A stretch of DNA of 64,000 bases from contig CADDZI010000006.1 of NCBI GenBank assembly GCA_902812405.1, positions 1-64,000 of the forward strand, in the 5' to 3' direction. Position numbers and translations under genes: made by a program. Below, one piece after another: positions 28,868-41,325 of the stretch (position 1 is its first letter; each line of letters begins with the position of its first letter). Source of the stretch: a bacterium (GTDB lineage Bacteria; Vulcanimicrobiota; Vulcanimicrobiia; Eremiobacterales; Eremiobacteraceae). The notes beneath the pieces were generated by a model that saw only the letters and a program-made list of their open reading frames with translations, did no database searches and was not told the DNA's origin.

Positions 28868-28946
28868 GACGCTGCGACGGCTGTTTCGAAGTCTGCCAAG
28901 CCGCTCCTCCACGACATAGGTCACAGACGGGAGGCGTCAGACCGGC

Positions 28947-29045
28947 AAAAACCGCGGCACCCGAAGGGTCCGCGTACCGCTGCTACCTTCCGGTCCTGAC
29001 GGGGTTGGCGGACTTTCGTCGCGCGGGTACCGGTCTTCGCCCCCC
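28947..29045 (-). ncRNA. ffs: Bacterial SRP RNA (4.5S type)
   Basis: The minus strand carries the invariant SRP domain IV: GTCAGGACCGGAAGGTAGCAGC, with the GGAA tetraloop and the asymmetric loop for Ffh binding (around 28982-29003). Flanking arms pair as expected: AGTCCGC with GCGGACC, GTACCCG with CGGGTGC and ACCGG with CCGCGG-type bases, giving one rod of about 100 nt. A T5 run at 28947-28951 marks the likely 3' end. It is the short form lacking the Alu domain. Ends are approximate. Confidence 0.9.
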
Positions 29046-29239: not shown

Positions 29240-30226
29240 TCAATGCCGCCCCTCAGGCGGCGGTTTCCCAAATCCGTATCGGCGGTAGGCAGCTTGCGCT
29301 TGTGCCGAGCGCAGATATGCGCACCACAACACGCCCGCCCCGCTATGCGGTGCCGTACGCAGGACACCCGCCGCGTACGTTGCGGTCACGTTATCCGCCT
29401 TCGGAATGGCCACGCCGCCGATCGGATTGCCGGCCGACTCCTGAAAGCGGACTTCGGACGCCCAGGTGACGCCCGCGTCCACCGTTCCCTGCATAATCCA
29501 CATCGGCGTTTGACGGTGATGAATCTGGGTCAAGCGCGTCCGGCCGTCGGCAACCTTTGTCACGTAGACCGCACGATACAGGGCGTCGCCGCCCGCCGCA
29601 CGCAGAGCGGCAGCAATCTGACGGGCAACGCCTTCGTAGCCCGGGTTTGGCATCGCGAGCCGCACGTCGGAGCGGGCAAGATCGCGCAGCGTGCGGATAT
29701 GCCGCGGATTACCGGCATGCACCATCATCGCCAGGCTGTTGGTCGCATACGTCGTGACGTGTGTCACCTCACCTCGCTTTCGCATGGCGGCCAGCGTGCG
29801 CACCCCCGCTTCGTAGACGTCGGGCGCGACGCGTATCGTCAGGTTACCCAGCGTGAGCCGGCCGCCGGCGTGGATCTGGCGTGCCAGAATACCCGGGGGC
29901 AGGCTCTCGTAAAAGATGTGCCCGCGGAAGCGCGGGTATTGCCGCACGAATCCGTCAATCAGTGCCGGCATGACAAAAAACTGGTTCCCGCCGACGAAGA
30001 GAACCAGCATCGCGCCCTCGGGGTTGCCGTGCAGGTCTGCGACGTTGTCGATGTCCGGCACCGCAAACGTTTCGCCTCGATCAAGGGCGGGGTTCATGTC
30101 TCCATCAGCCCACGGCGGAAAGGGCCCCGCGGCAACCGGGGCGCCGAGCACGGCTCCGAAAAGGCAAACCGCGGCGAGGGCCGCCCGTGCCGCTGTACGG
30201 AGGATGGCGCGCTCCACCAGCATCAC
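29240..30226 (-). CDS. Exported substrate-binding protein (ModA/PBP-II-like)
   Basis: A 328-residue protein with a signal peptide (about residues 10-33, cleavage near APVAAG) and a type II periplasmic-binding fold. The block FVGGNQFFVMPALIDGFVRQYP followed by ILARQIHAGG, and later TYATNSLAMMVHAGNP, RTLRDLARSDVRLAMPNPGYEG and VDAGVTWASEVRFQ, follow the layout of molybdate/thiosulfate-type binding proteins (SBP_bac_11-like). No permease or ATPase gene is adjacent. Its GTG overlaps the stop of a DsrE-like exported protein (GTGA), so the two are translationally coupled and probably work together. Ligand unknown; an oxyanion is a guess from the fold family. Confidence 0.75.
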   Translation of the reverse strand: MMLVERAILRTAARAALAAVCLFGAVLGAPVAAGPFPPWADGDMNPALDRGETFAVPDIDNVADLHGNPEGAMLVLFVGGNQFFVMPALIDGFVRQYPRFRGHIFYESLPPGILARQIHAGGRLTLGNLTIRVAPDVYEAGVRTLAAMRKRGEVTHVTTYATNSLAMMVHAGNPRHIRTLRDLARSDVRLAMPNPGYEGVARQIAAALRAAGGDALYRAVYVTKVADGRTRLTQIHHRQTPMWIMQGTVDAGVTWASEVRFQESAGNPIGGVAIPKADNVTATYAAGVLRTAPHSGAGVLWCAYLRSAQAQAAYRRYGFGKPPPEGRH

Positions 30227-30936
30227 ACCGTGATGTAGGTGTAGCGGCCGTCGCTTTGCAGCAGTGCGATGGCCGCGACCATCGCCGCAACCACCAGAAC
30301 ACCGGGTTGCACGTGGGCCAGCATGTCACGGACGATCGTCTCCGGCTCTTGGGTCAAGCCGAAGCGGTGGATGAGAGCCCGGGCTTGTTCTTCGGTTGCC
30401 GTGTGGCAGCTCAAAAAGACGACACCGCGGCGCTGCAACGCCTGCATGCTCGTGTCCTGAAAAAGGGATTGCATGCTGTCGGGATCGTTGCTCGGATAGC
30501 GGCCGTCGGCAACCGGACTTGCATAGAAGGGGTTGCGCGTTGCGGGTTGACCGGTATGCGGGTCCGTGACACCTAGCCATTCACCGATGCGATACCTGCT
30601 CCAGACGGTGTCATCGAAGTTGAGCATGTTGGCAGGCCCGTGGAGGGCACCGACCACCTGGATCTGGTCGGCCGGTATGCCAAAACTGAAGTGCAAGCCG
30701 TTGAGAGAGTTCTTCATATTGTTGAGGAACTTGCCGTCGCCGATCTGGGTCACGTCGTAGACTTGTTTGACGCGTGCCCCGGCGTGGACGAGCCTCTCAA
30801 ACGGCTCGGGGTTCCAATCGTGCGTCGTGTACACCAATTGAGCGTCTGCTCTTTGCGCCGCCCTGGCTGCGAGGCCGACCCCGATGGCGCCGGCCACGGC
30901 GCGGCCAACGAAATGCTTGCGAGATAGCTTCTGCAC
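30223..30936 (-). CDS. Exported DsrE-family protein with Tat-like signal
   Basis: A 237-residue protein. The N-terminus MQKLSRKHFVGRAVAGAIGVGLAA reads like a twin-arginine signal with Lys replacing the second Arg, with cleavage near RADAQ. The body follows the DsrE/DsrF plan: an early THDWNPEPFERLVHAG strand-helix, QVVGALHGPANMLNF (compare the family VVxHGxA block), a single Cys in GVVFLSCHTATEEQA, and the terminal PGVLVVAAMVAAIALLQSDGRYTYI, equivalent to the usual end of this fold. DsrE-like proteins handle sulfur or serve redox roles in the cytosol; exported members are poorly known. Coupled by GTGA to the following binding-protein gene. Family assignment by pattern, moderately sure. Confidence 0.7.
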   Translation of the reverse strand: MQKLSRKHFVGRAVAGAIGVGLAARAAQRADAQLVYTTHDWNPEPFERLVHAGARVKQVYDVTQIGDGKFLNNMKNSLNGLHFSFGIPADQIQVVGALHGPANMLNFDDTVWSRYRIGEWLGVTDPHTGQPATRNPFYASPVADGRYPSNDPDSMQSLFQDTSMQALQRRGVVFLSCHTATEEQARALIHRFGLTQEPETIVRDMLAHVQPGVLVVAAMVAAIALLQSDGRYTYITV

Positions 30937-30979
30937 GGGCGTGCTCCTTTGGAAGAGTCATGGAACCGGGTCGGGGTGG

Positions 30980-31067
30980 CGGAGAGGGAGGGATTCGAAC
31001 CCTCGAGACGCTTGCGGCGCCTACACGCTTTCCAGGCGTGCCTGTTCGACCACTCCAGCACCTCTCC
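30980..31067 (-). tRNA. tRNA-Ser (anticodon GGA)
   Basis: Class II tRNA: acceptor GGAGAGG/CCTCTCC, anticodon stem CACGC/GCGTG with loop CTGGAAA giving GGA, long variable arm, discriminator G. Confidence 0.95.
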
Positions 31068-31272: not shown

Positions 31273-33279
31273 CTACGGCAGGGTAACTTCGGCCGAAGCG
31301 GACGGCTGACCCAGCGCGCCGTTGGCGGCTTCGTAGACGATGCGATACAGGGCTCGCATTCGTCTGGGAGGATTCACGTCCAAAGCCTTCGTCCCGAGGA
31401 CCACGGGCCCGGCGATGACAAGCCAAGTCCCCTTTCCGCCCGCCTGGCGTTCGACGACGACCGCCAGCCCGTGTGGGATTTTGCCGAACGTCACTTGCAC
31501 GTGGGCAAAAGGCGTCGCCCGATAGGACACGCCCGGAGCGTCCGGGACCGGGAGAGGTGGGCTCCCAACGTGGACCACAACCGGACGTGTGGGTTGACTT
31601 CGGTTGCCGTAGCGGTCAACAGCGACAAAGCGATACCAATAATCTTGTCCCGGCTCAACGTTGCGGTCGACGTAGACGCGGGCGCTGCCCGGCAGCGGCA
31701 GCCCCATGACGACGCCCAGACGGCCCTCCGCGCCGGACCGCAACGCAATGATGTGCGTGGTCTTGCCGGCCGGTGCGGCCGCCGCCAGACCGATCGTGAC
31801 GATACCGTTTCGACCGCTCGCCGAGCGCACGTATGGCATGTCGGGCGGCGTCGTGTCGAGCAAAGTAACGGCGACGGTTTGGCTGGGTGAGGATTCCTTG
31901 CTATCGAATCCTACTGCTACCACGCGATACATGAGCGTGCCGGTCGTACCCAAGCCGACGAAGTCGTTGTAAAAAGGCGCGGGTGTCACCTTGGCGTTCA
32001 ACGTTTCCCACCGTGGGTCGGTGTCGGTGCGGCGCTCAATGAAGTACCCGGCGATGGCATAGCGGGCCGGCTGCCACGTCAAGCGGACTCGTGAACGGCC
32101 CACCTGGGCGTGCAGCCCAGCGACCGGTGCCGGAGCCGCAGGGGATGTCGGCTGCGCGGCAACGGGAAGGCTGGGGGGTCCAAGGTCTCCCTGGGGGCTG
32201 ACCGCGAGGACGCGGTAGTAGTAGACCGTTCCTCCCCGCAGGCCGCGATCCACGTAGGTGCCGGTCGTCGGCCCCAGGGGCTTGATCGTGAGCGGGACGT
32301 AAGGCCCGTCGTAGAGCGTTGACCGCTCGACGACGTAGCCCGCCGTGTGCCGGTTCTCGCGCGGCCGCCAGTGTAGCGTGTTCTCCTCGTGGCCGGCCGT
32401 CGCGCTGACGAAGACCGGGGCGATGGCCTGCATATCGACTGCAAAGAACGACGTTACCGCAGCCTGGCTGCGCCGTCCGAACGGATCCAGAGCATAGACC
32501 CGATACGTCAGCTGGGTGTCGGTCGGTGCCAGCGCATCGATGAACTCGGGCTGATCCGGCCGCCAGCGGACGGTCAAGACGAGCGGCCTTTGCGTCACTG
32601 AGACCCCACGCTGCCCGCCGCCGTCGCGCTCGATCGCATAGGCAATCACGGGTGCCGTGCGGTTGAGCTGCGGTAGATTCCAAAACAAGACAACGCCGCG
32701 CATGGTGGACGTGCCGTGCAGACCGCTGACGGCTGGCGGGAGGGGGGTCGGCACGAGGGGATTGACCGGCGGTCCATCGATGACCGGCCCCGCCGGGGAA
32801 CCGGCGGAATTCAGACCCACGGCGCGATAGCGGCGCTCGCCGCCCGAGCGATCTATTGTCGTCAACGTCAGGCCGGCCGCTTGGGCGTAGGTCTGATTGG
32901 TGAACGCCTTGAGCCCCAGCACGCCGTACAGATTGGCCAGATCTGCGGACCGTGTTGCACGTTGCTGGCTGGGGAAAAAGTCGCGGATACTTTGCTGGTC
33001 TGCAGCCGACAGTCGTGCCAGCGCGGCAGGGTTGCCCAGGCTGACCCGCGTCGCAACGACGTGCGGGCTGCCCGCTCCCAACTCCAGGATTTGCCAACCC
33101 CCGTTCGGCATGCGGCCGACCGGAGGAAACCACAGCAAGCGGATGGTGCCGTGTCCATCGGAGACGGCCAGCATGCCGCCGCCGGCCGCGCTGTCGGCAC
33201 GCGCCGGCACAGCCGAACCAAAGAGCCAGACCAAGCAGGCCACGACCGACAGAATGCCGGCACGGACGCGACGCTTCAC
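31273..33279 (-). CDS. Secreted fibronectin type III repeat protein
   Basis: About 668 residues from GTG 33279; the preceding frame to GTG 33348 is possible. A signal peptide (basic VKRRVR, hydrophobic core, cleavage near VPARA) is followed by an N-terminal region of about 170 residues without clear family, then four to five FN3-like beta-sandwiches marked by repeated elements such as VRLTWQPARYAIAGYFIERR, LHWRPRENRHTAGYVVERS, YYYRVLAVSPQGDLG and YWYRFVAVDRYGNRS. These are typical extracellular adhesion or spacer modules. No catalytic domain, LPXTG or type IX tail is seen. It is the last of three consecutive surface-protein genes, 91 bases after the giant protein. Confidence 0.85.
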   Translation of the reverse strand: MKRRVRAGILSVVACLVWLFGSAVPARADSAAGGGMLAVSDGHGTIRLLWFPPVGRMPNGGWQILELGAGSPHVVATRVSLGNPAALARLSAADQQSIRDFFPSQQRATRSADLANLYGVLGLKAFTNQTYAQAAGLTLTTIDRSGGERRYRAVGLNSAGSPAGPVIDGPPVNPLVPTPLPPAVSGLHGTSTMRGVVLFWNLPQLNRTAPVIAYAIERDGGGQRGVSVTQRPLVLTVRWRPDQPEFIDALAPTDTQLTYRVYALDPFGRRSQAAVTSFFAVDMQAIAPVFVSATAGHEENTLHWRPRENRHTAGYVVERSTLYDGPYVPLTIKPLGPTTGTYVDRGLRGGTVYYYRVLAVSPQGDLGPPSLPVAAQPTSPAAPAPVAGLHAQVGRSRVRLTWQPARYAIAGYFIERRTDTDPRWETLNAKVTPAPFYNDFVGLGTTGTLMYRVVAVGFDSKESSPSQTVAVTLLDTTPPDMPYVRSASGRNGIVTIGLAAAAPAGKTTHIIALRSGAEGRLGVVMGLPLPGSARVYVDRNVEPGQDYWYRFVAVDRYGNRSQPTRPVVVHVGSPPLPVPDAPGVSYRATPFAHVQVTFGKIPHGLAVVVERQAGGKGTWLVIAGPVVLGTKALDVNPPRRMRALYRIVYEAANGALGQPSASAEVTLP

Positions 33280-33369
33280 GGGGATGAGCTTCCCCGGCCA
33301 AGCCGGCGGCGCTTGTTGCGCGACGGAAGCGCTGTCACAGCTGTTCACGGCGGTTCGAACTCCACGGAC

Positions 33370-36300
33370 TCATAGGTGGACGCAGAAGTGAATGTCAGGC
33401 AAAGGCCACGGCGTGCCGATAGACGCACACCCGGTGACGTCAAGAGGCATAGCCGAAGCCTTGATGTCAATCGACTCCGAAACGCTGAAGCAGCCGCCTG
33501 CGATGCACGCGCCGCATTGTGCGGTTTCCGAAAACTCCCCGCTAACGTGCGGTTCCGGTGTTATCGTCAGGTCAACGTCTCCCTCGAAGTCGATGTAGGC
33601 CGATACGACGCTTGAGTCGCCGACGTCAAGATTCATCGTCGCACTGCCCCCGACGTCCACGCCTTGATTGGAGAGCATGAGGTAGCCGTCGACGTCGCCG
33701 ACGAGCAGGTGCGCCTGCACCCGCGGGCCGCTCTTCTGACCGACGTAGATATGCCAGTCGCCTCCTCCAAAGTGGAGGCTGGCGGCGTACTGACTGGAAC
33801 CATATTTCGGGCCCGGAATCTCCAGGTAAGCGATGTTGTTGAGCGGATCGGGTGCGTCGAACTTTCCCTCAAGACCGCCGTCGAAATTTCCTCCGCCAAA
33901 CTGAAAGTAACCGTCGATCAAGGGGTTGCCGCTGTGGTCGGGACTGGCGAACCAGGCCGCGTAGTCCATGCGAACACTCGGACTGCTCCCCAACGTGATC
34001 GTGAAGTTGCCGTCGAGGAAGTAGGTAAAGCCGTTATCCACCGATCCCAATTGCAGGCCCGCCAGCAGCGTCAGGTCGGAGCTCGGGTCGAACGTCGCCT
34101 TCGTAACGTCTTCGGGATTCTTGAGGTGGATGTGGTAGCCCGCCCCGCCGCCGATGCGGTAGAGGCTCATCGCTGCGGGGATGATGACGACGCCCGTACC
34201 GGGAAAAGACACGTCGACGCGAATGGCCCAGTAATCCGTGCCGCCCTGGTAGCCCAGCAGGAACTGCGCCTTGACCGGCGGGCCGCCGAAGTTCGACAGG
34301 TCGACGTCGCCCGTGTACTGGTCGTCGTTTGCCGTTTGCCGGTACACAGGCCGGATGTGGGAATCCGACGCCGGCTGACCGGCCGGGAAGGCCACCTCCT
34401 CATCGAAGGTGTTCATGCTGGGCGGCGAGACGACGTACTGCGTGCCCTCTTGGGAGAATCTGTAGTTGACCTGGGTCCCAGCCGCGGGCATGTAGGGACT
34501 CGACGAGAGGTGGACCGTCACCGCAAAGGCGACATCCAGCAGGTCGTTGCCGGCCGTCGGAGCGATCATGTGCACCGATTGCAGCTGAACCGGCGTACTG
34601 CCGAACATGGACGATCCCCCCAAGGGGATGTCTGTTTCCGTCGTTCCTCCCGCAAATGACGGCCGTCCTGCCAAGGTGAAGAACATGTGCGGGACATCCA
34701 CGTGCGCGAAGTGGTTGGGACCGTTGGAGAAATCAAAGTGCCCGTCTCCGCCTACCACCCAGCCTAAACCCTGCTGGGCTTGGAACTGCAGGTTATCGAC
34801 GGCAATGCTGATCTGTCCAAACTGCCGGCTCACCGGAGCGGACGACAGCGACAGGTAGGCCGTCCCGCTGCTCACGAGCGTTCCCGTTCCGGTTAGGTTG
34901 GCGTCGATGAAGGGAACGTGGACGAGCATGTTCGGGTATGTCGCCGTGAGTTCGGACTTGGTGACGTTGACGGTGGCGTGTGGGATGCTCACGTATCCGT
35001 TCTCGACGTCGGCTCGGAAGTTGATGTCGCGGTCGAAACTGCCCTCGAGACCCTCGGCATCCACGTACCAGCCGTTGACCTGCGCCGTGCTGTTGCCGAA
35101 GCCCAGCGTGAAGAGCGTCAGCTGCGCCTGTCCCAGGTCGATATTTTTTGTCAGGTCAAATGTGACGTTGTTCGAGGCAAGGAAGAACTGGCTGTGCCCG
35201 ATTTCGGTCGCAGGGAGCACCGCATGCTTGTAGACCCACGTCCCGTCGGGAAACACGGGAGCGACGAGGTTCTTCCATGCCGGCGCATGCGGCAGGTTCG
35301 TGATGATGCGTAGTTCCTGGCTCGTCAGCGACAGATTGAGGCCCATCAACATGTCGTAGTCGGGTTTGCCGTCCGTTTGGCCGTCGAGGGATGCCACGGA
35401 AGCGGTCACGCCGACGAGATGGAGATTTTGCGCCTCCCCAGGGGAGCCGACGTGCAGCCGGGCTTGCGCAACGTTGAGCCCATCCGGCACGTGCCAATTC
35501 TGAAAGTTGACGCGCACGGGTATGGCTTCGCTGGCGCCGCCGCCGACCGGAAAGTGCAGTACCAGCGAGCCGTGGCCGCTCCATAATCCCGGGCCGCTCG
35601 CGGTGATATTGTGCTGCAAGCCCGAGATCTCAAACGTACCTTCTTTGGTTGCAAACAGAAACGTACACGGCATTTTTGGGTTCGCTGGTTGCGCATCGTA
35701 GAAAGCGGGTCCCGACGTCACCGCCCCACCGGCGCGCCGAGGCGGCGCCCTCAGCGGTGCTTGTGCGACCGTCAGACCACCCGACGACCCGATCATAGGG
35801 TGGCTGGCAGCGGGTGCGACATACGCAACGAGAGGGACACGGTGAGATCCCTGCGTGAAGGGAGAGAGGAAACCCACGCTGCTTCCGAGCGCGGACGGTG
35901 ACACTCGTCCAGCTGCGAGAAGGACATCCAGGTTGGGGGCGCTCGCTGTCGGCGGCGCCACCTCGACCTCGACGACGACCCGGTGGTGTCCTGGCTGAGT
36001 GGTCAGGGTTTGCCGGGGGTACAACACCTGGGAGTCCACGTTCGGTGGACCGCTGCAGCCGCCGCGGCCACAGCCGTGACGCGGGTGCGAGCTCAAACCC
36101 GGCACGGCGTCGGTCTCCAGCTGCTGACCGTCGAGCAGCCACCTTGCCTGCGCATCGCCCGTCCCGTAGTAGCGCAACGTCGCCTGCGCCGTGACATCGT
36201 CGTCACACGTGCTGCACACGCCGTACACGGATCCGGCAGCCATTGCCGTGTGAGGTGCGCTGACGCGATGATTGGGAAAGTCCGTGATCGCCACGCTCTG

Positions 36301-38316
36301 GAGATGGAGCGGACCTTCGGCCGCCGCATCGACGCCCTCGTCGATGGTCACTTCCTGGCAGAACAGCTCGTAGGCTCGCGCGGCCACGTCGGCTGCACTC
36401 GGCAGCGTCTGCCGCAGGGCACCGGTGAAACGCGGTGGTGCAGACTTCGGGTCTGATCCGGCTACCGCTGACACGGAAACGAGCCGAAAGTACGGGTTGG
36501 CGGCAGCCAACGCCGCACCGTCAATGGACGCCCCAAGCTCGGTCGGCGACAGACTTTGCGCGTCGGACTCTGCAATTTGAAAGATGCGGATCGCGTAGCG
36601 TCCGGTTACGGCGTAGCGATGCATGTTGACGTTGACGCCGTTGGAGTCATGGAATTGGTCGGCGTTGAGGTTGAGGGACGCATGTGCCGCCTGGGGCAAG
36701 GTCAAAGCGGTGGGGTGCGGCTGGCGCTGCGTGTACTGACCGCCATAGGCAGCTTGTGCGGGTACCGCGCGCAAGGGCTCAACCGTTCCGTCGCCCCAGT
36801 CGATGAAAACGTTGTCGAAATCCGCTTCCAGCATCGGCGGAGCGAACGAGTTGGGAACGTTCTGCGTGACCACATTGGGGTGAGAGAGATACGGAGAACC
36901 GGAGAGATCGAGGTTGCCGTACACGACAAAGGGGTCGCCGATGTAATTGGTCACATCTGTTGCGCCATGGGAAGTCTGTAACGCAAGATTTTCGGCAACC
37001 AATCCGCCCCGGCTTATGGGGCAGGCCCCGAGCCCGTTCGCGTTGTCTGGCTTGCCCAGCGGCCATTGATCGGACTTCTCCACCTCCACCGTTTTGGTCT
37101 GCGCCGGCTGGTTGGGATCCGGGGCGAACTGTTTGTAGCCGCGCACCTCCCATAACAGGTTGGCGTCCTCGAGGTACGGCGCGATATTCTTCGTGACGCC
37201 GCTCGGCAGTACGTTCGCTCGGCTCACGTCGACGGCCAGCTGCCGGGCTTGTGCAAAAACCAGGCGATGCCGGCGCTGCCAGGCGTACAGCTTCTGCAGG
37301 ACGGTTTCGAGGAAGGCCGGGTCGGGAGCGTAGTAGGTCTGGGTCTGATCCAGTCTCTTGGCGAGCAGCAATTTCCCCTGTGGCGTCAAAATACGTAGCT
37401 CGAAGTAGTCCGCAGTTCCGGGATTTCGCTCATGCCAGGAAAACACGGCCGAGTCGTCGAGCATCGGCGTGCCGTAGTCGCAGGTAAAACCTTCGCCGCA
37501 TTCCTGCTTGCCCCACTGGGGTGTGACGAGGTCGATTCTTCCCTCCACGAACGTCAGGCCGAGGCGCGGAAACTTCACGACCGGGAGCGGGCCGCTGTAA
37601 TAGCCGGTGGCAGTTTGCACGCCAGCCGCGTACGCATAGGCGATGGGCGGGGGCGGGGTAGCCGTGGCGCCCGTCAGGTACGAGGGCGAGAGCACCGCAA
37701 GACTCACGCTGTGCTGGCCGCTGTTGGGTAGCGGCAGCGTAAGAGTCAGACGCTGCGCGCCCCCCGTGGCAACACTCTGCGTTGCCGTCTGGATGGGATT
37801 ACCGTCCAGCTGCCACTGAACGATGAGCGTGCCGCTGCCCGACGTCTGCACGACGGCGACGGGGTGAGGCGGAGGTGCCGACCCGGATAGACTCAGGGAC
37901 GTCTGGCCGTTCGGCCACGACAACGCGATGGAGGTGACCGCAAGGCCGCGCGACGGTGCGGGCGCCGGCGTGGGCGTTGCCGGAGCGACGACCGTCAAAC
38001 GCAGGCGGGCAACGACTTGCAAAATGAGGCCCGACGAATACAGCACGAGAACGTACTGTCCGGCCTGAGCGTAGGAATGGTACACCGGTACGTTGGCTTG
38101 CACCGTGGCCCGCTGGGAACCATCCCCAAAGTCCACGAGCAATTGGCCGACGGGAGTACCGGGGCTCGGGCGTGCCGTGATGGCGACGGGCTGTCCCACG
38201 AACGCCGGATTGGGCGTTGCGCTCAAGCTGAAGTCGGCTGCGGCCGATGAGACGGCCAGGACGAGCGCGCCGACAGCGGCCAGGACGATCAGACGGACGG
38301 ACGTTGCATGTCTCAT
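33370..38316 (-). CDS. Giant secreted beta-rich PKD-containing protein
   Basis: About 1648 residues from ATG 38316, giving a standard signal peptide (MRHATSVRLIVLAAVGALVLAVSSAAA); ATG 38385, which overlaps the upstream stop (ATGA), would add 23 residues. An N-terminal PKD-like domain carries LLVDFGDGSQ, and a second, FIDWGDGTVEP, lies in the first third. The rest is mostly repetitive beta-strand sequence rich in Gly, Asn, Asp, Val and Ser, for example GDGHFDFSNG, DGYLMLSNQGVDVGGS and YIDFEGDVDL, with low Lys. The last 80 residues hold five cysteines (CGAC, GGC, TGC, FC), plausibly disulfide-bonded. No enzyme motif was found. I recognise no named family; a structural or binding role at the cell surface is inferred. 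Confidence 0.85.
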   Translation of the reverse strand: MRHATSVRLIVLAAVGALVLAVSSAAADFSLSATPNPAFVGQPVAITARPSPGTPVGQLLVDFGDGSQRATVQANVPVYHSYAQAGQYVLVLYSSGLILQVVARLRLTVVAPATPTPAPAPSRGLAVTSIALSWPNGQTSLSLSGSAPPPHPVAVVQTSGSGTLIVQWQLDGNPIQTATQSVATGGAQRLTLTLPLPNSGQHSVSLAVLSPSYLTGATATPPPPIAYAYAAGVQTATGYYSGPLPVVKFPRLGLTFVEGRIDLVTPQWGKQECGEGFTCDYGTPMLDDSAVFSWHERNPGTADYFELRILTPQGKLLLAKRLDQTQTYYAPDPAFLETVLQKLYAWQRRHRLVFAQARQLAVDVSRANVLPSGVTKNIAPYLEDANLLWEVRGYKQFAPDPNQPAQTKTVEVEKSDQWPLGKPDNANGLGACPISRGGLVAENLALQTSHGATDVTNYIGDPFVVYGNLDLSGSPYLSHPNVVTQNVPNSFAPPMLEADFDNVFIDWGDGTVEPLRAVPAQAAYGGQYTQRQPHPTALTLPQAAHASLNLNADQFHDSNGVNVNMHRYAVTGRYAIRIFQIAESDAQSLSPTELGASIDGAALAAANPYFRLVSVSAVAGSDPKSAPPRFTGALRQTLPSAADVAARAYELFCQEVTIDEGVDAAAEGPLHLQSVAITDFPNHRVSAPHTAMAAGSVYGVCSTCDDDVTAQATLRYYGTGDAQARWLLDGQQLETDAVPGLSSHPRHGCGRGGCSGPPNVDSQVLYPRQTLTTQPGHHRVVVEVEVAPPTASAPNLDVLLAAGRVSPSALGSSVGFLSPFTQGSHRVPLVAYVAPAASHPMIGSSGGLTVAQAPLRAPPRRAGGAVTSGPAFYDAQPANPKMPCTFLFATKEGTFEISGLQHNITASGPGLWSGHGSLVLHFPVGGGASEAIPVRVNFQNWHVPDGLNVAQARLHVGSPGEAQNLHLVGVTASVASLDGQTDGKPDYDMLMGLNLSLTSQELRIITNLPHAPAWKNLVAPVFPDGTWVYKHAVLPATEIGHSQFFLASNNVTFDLTKNIDLGQAQLTLFTLGFGNSTAQVNGWYVDAEGLEGSFDRDINFRADVENGYVSIPHATVNVTKSELTATYPNMLVHVPFIDANLTGTGTLVSSGTAYLSLSSAPVSRQFGQISIAVDNLQFQAQQGLGWVVGGDGHFDFSNGPNHFAHVDVPHMFFTLAGRPSFAGGTTETDIPLGGSSMFGSTPVQLQSVHMIAPTAGNDLLDVAFAVTVHLSSSPYMPAAGTQVNYRFSQEGTQYVVSPPSMNTFDEEVAFPAGQPASDSHIRPVYRQTANDDQYTGDVDLSNFGGPPVKAQFLLGYQGGTDYWAIRVDVSFPGTGVVIIPAAMSLYRIGGGAGYHIHLKNPEDVTKATFDPSSDLTLLAGLQLGSVDNGFTYFLDGNFTITLGSSPSVRMDYAAWFASPDHSGNPLIDGYFQFGGGNFDGGLEGKFDAPDPLNNIAYLEIPGPKYGSSQYAASLHFGGGDWHIYVGQKSGPRVQAHLLVGDVDGYLMLSNQGVDVGGSATMNLDVGDSSVVSAYIDFEGDVDLTITPEPHVSGEFSETAQCGACIAGGCFSVSESIDIKASAMPLDVTGCASIGTPWPLPDIHFCVHL

Positions 38317-38381
38317 CGTTCGACGAAAGCTCCCGTGTGCTCGAGCAGGCCGGCGGCCGGCATTTCCGCAATCGCCGATCT

Positions 38382-40709
38382 TCATATGTTGACGTCGAGC
38401 CGCGCCCGGAGCACGGCTGAGGTCCCGTTCTTGGTCGGCGTGTAAAAATCGGTGTGATGGTTGGTCTGGGCGTGAAGGCCCAGACTCACGTGAGGTCCCA
38501 GGTGGTACGACAGCATGCTGCCCAGGTAGAGATCCCGCGTTTTGGCCGACACGGCGTTCTGATTGAGGTTGGCCGCCGACAGGGAGAGCTCAAAGCCGTG
38601 CGCGGCTGCGAACGCGTTGGCGGGCGGATTCGGGGATTGGCCGGCACGCCCGGTGCCAATCGGCAGCGAAAGAACAATCGATTCGCCCAGTGTTGAGGAC
38701 GTGGTGTTCCCCTGATTTTGCGTGCCGTTGAGGCCGATGTTCAAACTCCCGGCACCCCGCGTCCACGTGTACTGCAGCGTACCCGTCCGCGTCACCCCCG
38801 CGTCTGTGGGCTGCAGGGCGTCGCGCAGCGTCGCCAGCGACGCCGTCAGTGCGAACGAGCCCGACGTCCCCGGCGTCGCAGCCGAGAACGAATAACTGTG
38901 GGTGCTGGTTTTGCTGGTTGCGGACGCCGACTGGTCGCCCGTCTCGCTCAAGCTCAGGTTCAAACCCCCGGCAGGTGCCAGCGTGAGGATGGCACCCTGC
39001 TGCGCATCCGAGAACGGCGATGAACGCTTCTCTTCGTGAGCGTAGGTAAGTGCCAAGGTGGCGCTACGCGTGAGGCCCAACGTCGCCTGCCCGCTGCCGC
39101 CCACGCTGTCGGAGGTGGCGCCCACCCCGTTGCCGGTGGCGAAGTTCGGTCCAAAGTTGTGGTATTCGAAGCTGAGAGTGGTCGCACCGTTGCTGTAGCC
39201 CAGTTGCGCCTTCTCGGCTGCATCTTTCGTTGTCGGGCCCCCGGTCAGTTCCGGACTGGCGCCGGATTGGGCGGCGCCGAGCGCCAGTGTGATGTGCTGC
39301 GCAAACGTCTCGTCGAACTCCACGCCACCCGCCCGTGCATCCAGAGGCTTCGTCGCACCGCCGGGTACGAATGTGTACGGATCGTCGATGTTCTGCAGGA
39401 ACGTCATGTGCAGGATCTGAGCGGCCGAAAACATTCTGGCCACGTTGACGAGGTAGCCGTCCTGAGCACCAAACACCGGTCCGGCGAGCTGCGGGTACCC
39501 CGCTGCAGCCTCGTAGCGCCAGCCGGAAGGGCTGACGACGGCGTCCAGGCCGCGCAACGACTCACCTCCGGAAAAGAGCAGGGAGGGCAGCTGCGCAGTG
39601 ACCGGACCCAGGCTGTCCTGGTAGTGGGGAGTTGACGATACGCCGGGATTGGGCGCAGGAGACGCCTGCGGCGGCGGCTGCTCATTGGGCGAAGTGACTT
39701 CGGGCGTGCCGGGCACGAGGGTCAAGAGCGGATCGATGCGCCGAGATGTGGGGTTGATTGTCGAGGCTGCGGTGAGCGTGTACGTCAGATTCTGAAATGC
39801 CAGCGCCAGGTTGGCGTTGAGGTTCGCATTTGCGGCGCTGCTGGGAATGGTTCCCGCCCCTCCGCCGACGGAAAATGAGGGTCCGGCTTCCAGCGATCCC
39901 GTCGCGTGGATGGTTGCAGAGATGGCAGGCTGCGGATCAGGCCCGCCGACGACGACGAGAGGAGCGGCCTGGCCCACGGCCACCGTACCGCCCACGTCCG
40001 CCGTCCGGATGTACGCGCGGACGCGGTACGCGCCGCGTGCGTCGCTGGGTACCGTGAACGGAATGTTGGCCGTTGTCAATGCGGCGCTGACGTTCGTAAC
40101 CGCGAGTTTCCCAACGACCGGCGGCAGCGCCACCGGGTCGCCGCGGGCGACAAGCCTGCCCTGCGCATCCAGCAGGTCGATGACCACGACCAGCTGCGCC
40201 GGCGGTGTATAGGCGACCCCGGTGGGGGTTTCGATACGATAGGTAATTTGAATATTTGTGCCGTCACCGGCCAGCACCGGCGACACGAGGGGCAGAGTTG
40301 AGAGGATGTGGCCGTGCGGGACGCGCGGAGTAGGCGCCGTCACGAAGATGTTGAGGAACACCGGCCGGGTCGCCGTGGACGTAAAGACGGCGGTATACAC
40401 CCCGGGCGTGGTGTACACGTGACCAACTCTGACTGGAAAGACCGGTCCCACAGGCACCGGCGCACTGCCGTCACCGAAGTTTACACTGCCCGTCACAGGT
40501 GCTGGTGCACCCACAGCCGTGACGTTGACGGTGAACGTCACCAGCGTGCCTGCAAGCGGCTGCGGATTGGAAACCGACAGACTGGCGGTTGCGGCACGGG
40601 CGGCGGCTGGAAAGACGGCCAACAAAAACCCGGCCCACGCGGCAAAAAGAAATGCCTTGCACGTGGGTGGAGAGGAACAGCGACCTCTCCGGCCATCCAC
40701 GCCGCGCAC
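38382..40709 (-). CDS. Secreted PKD-domain protein with C-terminal beta-barrel-like region
   Basis: A 775-residue protein starting at a GTG, with a signal sequence (about residues 18-40, cleavage near AAARA). Residues about 43-130 form a PKD-like domain (SVNFGDGSAPVP...HVYTTPGVYTAVFTS); 140-250 a second Ig-like domain. The remaining ~500 residues alternate short amphipathic strands with turns (LNANLALAFQNLTYTLTA, YSNGATTLSFEYHNFG, GSLNIGLNGTQNQGNTT) as in outer-membrane barrels, though the final residues (LRARLDVNI) lack the usual terminal aromatic. It would suit an outer-membrane anchor or exporter for the giant protein encoded next, whose start overlaps or closely follows this stop. Family not recognised. 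Confidence 0.8.
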   Translation of the reverse strand: MRGVDGRRGRCSSPPTCKAFLFAAWAGFLLAVFPAAARAATASLSVSNPQPLAGTLVTFTVNVTAVGAPAPVTGSVNFGDGSAPVPVGPVFPVRVGHVYTTPGVYTAVFTSTATRPVFLNIFVTAPTPRVPHGHILSTLPLVSPVLAGDGTNIQITYRIETPTGVAYTPPAQLVVVIDLLDAQGRLVARGDPVALPPVVGKLAVTNVSAALTTANIPFTVPSDARGAYRVRAYIRTADVGGTVAVGQAAPLVVVGGPDPQPAISATIHATGSLEAGPSFSVGGGAGTIPSSAANANLNANLALAFQNLTYTLTAASTINPTSRRIDPLLTLVPGTPEVTSPNEQPPPQASPAPNPGVSSTPHYQDSLGPVTAQLPSLLFSGGESLRGLDAVVSPSGWRYEAAAGYPQLAGPVFGAQDGYLVNVARMFSAAQILHMTFLQNIDDPYTFVPGGATKPLDARAGGVEFDETFAQHITLALGAAQSGASPELTGGPTTKDAAEKAQLGYSNGATTLSFEYHNFGPNFATGNGVGATSDSVGGSGQATLGLTRSATLALTYAHEEKRSSPFSDAQQGAILTLAPAGGLNLSLSETGDQSASATSKTSTHSYSFSAATPGTSGSFALTASLATLRDALQPTDAGVTRTGTLQYTWTRGAGSLNIGLNGTQNQGNTTSSTLGESIVLSLPIGTGRAGQSPNPPANAFAAAHGFELSLSAANLNQNAVSAKTRDLYLGSMLSYHLGPHVSLGLHAQTNHHTDFYTPTKNGTSAVLRARLDVNI

Positions 40710-41093
40710 CGTTCCACGGCCGGTGCCGGGTCCCCTCCGGGGTGATACGGCTCACAGACGCGAGCACCGTCACCGGGAATCGGTGCATGGAGAACCGGCA
40801 CAATTCAGGCTGCCATGCGGCCAGAGACAACCGCCGGCCACGCCGGACAGTCATGATCCCGGGGAGGATGGCGCACAGTGAACCAGCCCCAATCGATGCG
40901 ATGATGCACGATCAGGCCCTTCTCGATATCCATCATCTCCATGAGATCAACGAGATCAACCTCTCCATCCGGTGTTTGATGAACCGGACTGCATCGTCGT
41001 TCATGCAGAACCTCTTTCTGTGTCGCGCCCGCTGCTCATCTTCGACATCATGGCGCTGACGCAAACACAAGGCTGACTGACGAATGGAAATGC
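40710..41093 (-). other. 384-base gap upstream of the surface-protein genes; two candidate short ORFs
   Basis: No recognised gene. Two overlapping minus-strand frames are present: 40933-41004 (23 residues, starting MNDDAVRF, preceded by AGAGG with good spacing) and 40805-40942 (45 residues, starting MEMMDIEK), overlapping by 10 bases. A tandem TTGATCTC occurs in this stretch. It may be the leader of the surface locus; no convincing promoter or known riboswitch could be matched. Confidence 0.3.
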
Positions 41094-41182
41094 CGGAGAG
41101 GGTGGGATTCGAACCCACGAACGGGTATTAGCCGTTACTCGCTTTCGAGGCGAGCGCGATCAACCAGCTCTGCCACCTCTCC
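41094..41182 (-). tRNA. tRNA-Ser (anticodon CGA)
   Basis: Class II tRNA: acceptor GGAGAGG/CCTCTCC, anticodon stem CTCGC/GCGAG with loop CTCGAAA giving CGA, long variable arm, discriminator G. Confidence 0.95.
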
Positions 41183-41325
41183 GCGGTTGATTCAGCGACT
41201 GCGTTCCACCGGGGTTGCCGGCGGACTCTTCGCTGCCGGCAGGGCGGGCTCCTTAGGATGACGCGCGCTCTTCATCATCTTCGACGTTGCCCACGACGTG
41301 CATGCGCGGTGCGATGCGCTGCGTA

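Follow-up and report, generated by a model that had tools for sequence, protein, structure and literature searches.

The question raised by this locus is whether three adjacent genes for exported proteins, one of them giant, encode a dedicated cell-surface system, and which of them form its conserved part. In the window, by which we mean the whole stretch of 64,000 nucleotides that was analysed, genes A, B and C lie head to tail on the minus strand (Table 1). A and B are translationally coupled through a 4-bp overlap (ATGA) at the junction AACATATGAAG, and 21 bp separate the end of B from the start of C. Each protein contains exactly one hydrophobic segment, which is N-terminal and of the signal-peptide type, and translation of B and C likely begins ~23 codons inward, just before the signal peptides. 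An earlier note on this DNA had described three genes in a row, the first two with touching ends and all with signal sequences, and an FN3 protein in third place; these points are borne out, as are its coordinates. GC3 is 0.76-0.77 for A, B and C alike, and an open frame of 1671 codons would occur by chance at the local GC with a probability of ~1e-19. The genome comprises 2.3 Mb in 110 contigs, and the operon is flanked by tRNAs, tadA, and genes for a glycosyltransferase, MltG, a solute-binding protein, M23 and LepA.

Table 1. Genes and protein features of the A-B-C locus, in window coordinates
Feature	Coordinates	Strand	Basis and remarks
Gene A, 775 aa	38382..40709	-	Signal sequence, PKD, Ig-like, ~22-strand outer-membrane-type barrel (predicted)
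A residues 41-125, PKD	40335..40589	-	PF18911 E=1.3e-4, below gathering score; strands in AlphaFold2 model
A residues 130-255, Ig-like	39945..40322	-	AlphaFold2 strands; conserved GGPDPxP boundary
A residues 362-774, predicted barrel, 22 antiparallel strands of ~10-15 residues	38388..39626	-	AlphaFold2, Foldseek
Gene B, 1671 aa, giant secreted protein (predicted)	33370..38385	-	Likely true start Met24; homologues found
B residues 52-113, N-terminal PKD	38047..38232	-	PF00801 E=5e-4, below gathering score
B residues ~146-256, Ig-like 'LSWPNG...WxLDG'	37618..37950	-	Also in B type 2; hhalign 97.3% over B 56-257
B residues 265-1671, conserved core without known family	33373..37593	-	Found in both phyla
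B residues 520-603, degenerate PKD-like module (FDNVFIDWGDG...HxYxxxGxYxIRxFQ)	36577..36828	-	Motif in alignment, no Pfam match; kept in all type 1 homologues
B residues 1627-1632, CxxxxC	33490..33507	-	Kept in the 4 aligned homologues reaching that site
Gene C, 691 aa	31273..33348	-	Signal peptide, tandem FN3; PF00041 E=2.5e-9, two stretches

Judging from its predicted structure, protein A is probably an outer-membrane barrel. The AlphaFold2 model (13 sequences, mean pLDDT 67.5) consists, in order, of a signal helix, the PKD domain, the Ig-like domain, a low-confidence linker, and 22 strands that continue to the C-terminus. The first protein had been read in the earlier note as PKD-containing and barrel-like over residues 250-775; the PKD domain and a predicted barrel are retained, but the barrel starts only near residue 362, and the preceding 130-255 stretch is Ig-like. 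PKD is the sole match of A in a Pfam scan at E<1, and a profile of A compared with PDB sequences finds only collagenase PKD domains and a few others. In Foldseek searches against the PDB the top rows are mastigoneme filaments and complement-type proteins, not barrels, and the barrels found among the Ig-type matches are Deinococcus SlpA and SDBC, FimD, a chain of the Mtr complex, porins, MOMP and LptD, with TM-scores to known outer-membrane barrels of at most 0.41 for a model of this pLDDT. A viral fold search returned generic Ig/tail proteins only. The Mtr chain raised the idea of extracellular electron transfer, which was rejected, as the operon proteins have no CxxCH haem motif and the operon no cytochrome gene.

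By the sequence comparisons made here, B and C form an uncharacterised family, and the core of B lies outside every family library searched. As the earlier note had proposed for its giant protein, ~1400 residues of B have no match in Pfam, NCBIfam or PDB sequences; a Pfam scan at E<1 gives only PKD and BiPBP_C, the B profile matched zero PDB chains, and window-wise hhalign found no internal repeats in the core. This core keeps many invariant Gly, Pro and aromatic positions across phyla among type 1 proteins, the type found in the window, and three cysteines are invariant in five of five aligned rows, with the CxxxxC motif likely forming a disulphide. The N-terminus is swapped, being composed of PKD and the 'WxLDG' domain in this class and of IPT/TIG-type repeats in the Mizugakiibacter homologue. 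In the latter (L002:8198-14746, 2182 aa) the N-terminal repeats match PF09099 (quinohemoprotein amine dehydrogenase domain III; E=1.9e-17) in addition to IPT/TIG. An AlphaFold2 model of B residues 482-1671 (six sequences) was unusable (pLDDT 38.8), and since the model is this poor we set aside as evidence the Foldseek list obtained with it, in which LptD is the sole match at E<0.001, TamB and ApoB100 are weak, and TM-scores are ~0.1.

A divergent protein, which we call B type 2, is found for example in G033 and G092, where its length is ~1330 aa. Types 1 and 2 align only over their first ~200 residues (hhalign 97.3%), so that full-length homology was rejected and type 2 is considered equivalent by position and N-terminus, with homology of the cores unproven. 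At the type 2 loci (L024, L035, L037, L025/L036) the protein occupies the same operon slot as type 1, and its long C-terminal beta-rich part constitutes a second unclassified family.

Protein C gives generic FN3-type fibre matches in NCBIfam, PHROGs and PADLOC and nothing more, and its profile matches titin- and fibronectin-type FN3 chains of the PDB; for A and B these three libraries yield no additional match. Modules characteristic of PKD/FN3 surface proteins are present on all three exported proteins, as PKD below the gathering score in A and B, and as FN3 in C. In a tree of C, rooted at the midpoint only, the window's sequence and that of G002 cluster with Pseudomonadota and not with their class's other family, which suggests, though it does not prove, inter-phylum transfer.

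Among 117 genomes of the class, B of either type is present in six and C in the identical six, all of which also carry A, directly upstream of B in five. Besides the window, the A-B-C order, with gene ends overlapping or near-touching, is found in G002, G092, G033 and G082. G002 belongs to the window's family, and its B is 42% identical to that of the window; G033 and G092 belong to another family of the class and have A, B type 2 and a divergent C; and in G082 a contig break falls inside B, the contig ends overlapping by 214 bp, of which 213 are identical. In the sixth genome, G031, the order is C-B and A is on a separate contig. Outside the class, B and C are adjacent in three Pseudomonadota-like MAGs (Mizugakiibacter, Rhodanobacteraceae, and U-2019 MAG004, the last classed so from gene content only). 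Either A-B-C or B-C/C-B linkage thus occurs in nine genomes counting the window's, and because it recurs across genomes and phyla it is not due to chance. This settles in favour of linkage the neighbourhood check proposed in the earlier note, which had asked whether the homologues are ever neighbours.

B is rare. It was not found in 295 genomes sampled from the order of the U-2019 genome, nor in 199 genomes from its family, beyond U-2019 itself, and in the family of the Mizugakiibacter genome the search rose above marginal scores in the two known carriers only; no plasmid or viral copies were found. All three genes are under purifying selection (dN/dS 0.08-0.29), with values of 0.24 for A, 0.19 for B type 2 and 0.29 for C between G033 and G092. 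In the comparison of the two Rhodanobacteraceae MAGs, C has 0.16 and B, measured in two parts, 0.08-0.17.

The distribution of A is wider. It is present in 13 of the 117 genomes, and in seven of these (G004, G005, G011, G013, G062, G020 and G107) it occurs without B or C, next to unrelated genes; together with its location on another contig in G031, this indicates that A has a function of its own. In the two Pseudomonadota-like loci with full context, to which the following observation is limited, a different beta-rich exported protein lies close to B-C, of 595 aa just downstream in L003 and of 706 aa two genes upstream in L002. No homology to A is detectable by hhalign in either, and a common origin is not supported, the 'LG...RG' motif noticed by eye scoring no better than noise; they are candidate barrels by sequence pattern only. 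The conserved unit is therefore the B-C pair, and A is a frequent, replaceable and independently used neighbour, since it stands alone in more than half of its genomes, is unlinked in G031 and gives way to unrelated proteins in the Pseudomonadota-like loci.

Two observations concern the surroundings of these genes. In four genomes of the window's family (L058, L059, L060 and L023) the lone A is followed by a gene for a ~300-aa exported protein with the motif HRVGDxxDYTxxG, a second gene partner of A, of no known family, that lies near nuo genes in three of the four. A neighbourhood of APC permease, prolyl-tRNA synthetase and M16 peptidase genes holds C-B in G031 and A alone in G062 (L024 and L061), which would fit an exchange or partial loss of the locus at this one site.

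We propose that A, B and C form a diderm cell-surface assembly composed of an outer-membrane anchor or conduit (A), a giant modular surface protein (B) and an FN3 partner (C), a reading to which we give an even chance. A would cross the inner membrane by Sec, and the Bam machinery would insert it into the outer membrane as a folded, wide barrel whose PKD/Ig domains lie in the periplasm; an Omp85 gene is present in the window's genome. B would be a giant protein with disulphides that combines Ig/PKD-like modules with long beta sheets, and C would consist of FN3 modules in a chain. After joint expression and export the two would be kept together at the outer membrane, where A would act as anchor or conduit, and contacts to neighbours, matrix or surfaces would be made by C through its FN3 modules and by B through its modular ends, which are of PKD or IPT/TIG type. 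What the sequences demonstrate is the order and coupling of the genes, an export signal on each protein, the unfailing co-occurrence of B with C, and purifying selection; the barrel fold of A is predicted. We infer that B and C are outer-membrane or extracellular proteins, that they contact A and that their role is adhesive or structural; no sequence signal for the exit of either from the periplasm was seen. The earlier note had gone further and suggested a dedicated surface-display or secretion system. The conserved linkage and the predicted barrel of A speak for this, but the independence of A just described does not, and to call it a new secretion system would claim more than the evidence shows.

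The same distribution is the basis of a tentative alternative, possible though rather unlikely, in which B-C is the sole real unit and leaves the cell through a general pathway such as type II secretion, A being a porin-like protein captured into the operon. The solitary copies of A, the separation of A from C-B in G031, and the Pseudomonadota-like loci without a detectable A homologue are what it would predict, but it accounts less well for the fact that every B-C genome of the class carries A, nearly always directly upstream of B, and that independent loci also place a beta-rich exported protein near B-C. A bolder reading, which we find unlikely, makes B-C a mobile surface apparatus of two proteins, able to pass between phyla and to use any outer-membrane barrel that its host offers. 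Its corollary, that A in this class and the unrelated beta-rich proteins in Pseudomonadota would serve as an interchangeable export or docking port, we hold to be equally doubtful.

It is still less probable that B acts as a scaffold or lipid handler in the periplasm or across the whole envelope, working in the manner of TamB or LptD and docking on A, with C as a periplasmic spacer. Long antiparallel strands (12-15 residues) make up the central part of B in its model, and LptD is the one Foldseek match at E<0.001, but the model is too poor for either to weigh much. Moreover, no AsmA/TamB or LptD profile matches at E<1, B has no membrane anchor beyond its signal-peptide-like segment, and disulphides together with PKD/FN3/TIG modules typically mark a secreted protein. 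PKD and FN3 modules are also common companions of extracellular hydrolases, which, with the weak match of the A profile to collagenase PKD domains, is what would favour B being an extracellular enzyme of unrecognised fold whose modules bind substrate as in chitinases and cellulases. We consider this very improbable, given that no catalytic family was found for B in Pfam, NCBIfam, PHROGs, PADLOC or PDB sequences and that the haem motif is lacking. The earlier note had likewise seen no known catalytic or sorting motif, and indeed there is no LPxTG motif and no Pfam or NCBIfam match to a type IX C-terminal sorting domain.

The proposed A-B-C assembly, the best-supported account, would work most like the barrel-plus-Ig surface layers of Deinococcus or like usher-type display, but falls in none of the families tested. 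In Deinococcus, SlpA and the S-layer deinoxanthin-binding complex (SDBC) form an outer-membrane barrel with a periplasmic part, and the surface layer is large, beta-rich and made of Ig domains (PMC9388160, PMC10120038). The combination of a barrel with separate Ig-type modules is similar, and these proteins are among the best barrel matches of A by Foldseek; in contrast, A has PKD/Ig domains and no recognisable SLH, there is no sequence match, and B matches no S-layer family. The SlpA/OmpM tether, in which an SLH domain and a coiled coil precede the barrel, is also absent: Pfam finds no SLH, and the stretch that leads from the signal to the barrel in the AlphaFold2 model of A contains beta domains but no long helix. 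Chaperone-usher systems (FimD/PapC) likewise combine a wide barrel carrying periplasmic Ig-like domains with beta-sandwich cargo in one operon, and FimD matches A, but this likeness is at the fold level only (TM ≤0.41), as A has no usher Pfam match, the cargo has no recognised pilin domain, and no PapD-like chaperone gene is found among the genes flanking A-B-C. Two-partner secretion (TpsB/TpsA) shares the arrangement of a barrel gene beside a giant secreted beta-rich gene; however, at E<1 in Pfam A has no POTRA or Omp85/TpsB barrel and B no TPS (haemagglutination activity) domain. The plug and TonB_dep_Rec domains of TonB-dependent receptors gave no Pfam match either. PKD/FN3/IPT-TIG modular surface adhesins resemble the system in module types and N-terminal module swapping, whereas none of the family libraries searched contains the conserved core of 1400 residues in B. 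The literature searched holds no description of an A-B-C-type cluster.

The travelling of B-C together between phyla points to an undescribed cell-surface structure. A conserved protein core of 1400 residues that belongs to no known family, is maintained by purifying selection and in both phyla is always accompanied by the same FN3 protein would represent a surface system not yet described, in bacteria of which few have been cultivated. Should A indeed export or hold B and C, this would be a new way to build diderm surface structures, and the swapped barrels would tell what such a system cannot do without; an interchangeable barrel port for a giant protein would, if real, be a display principle not described before.

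Some further features of the window were noted. Two tRNA-Ser genes in like orientation (30977-31067 and 41092-41183) bracket the A-B-C operon, and their ends have 30 nt in common at 90%, so that an integration context is possible. We do not claim a genomic island, as isoacceptor tRNAs share such ends anyway and the base composition equals that of the flanks. At 29240-30936 there is a gene pair with overlapping ends, encoding an SBP_bac_11 solute-binding protein and a 237-aa protein that has a Tat-like N-terminus and no Pfam family. The bacterial small SRP RNA (RF00169) is located at 28937-29035, beside genes for an M23 peptidase and a DUF4446 protein.
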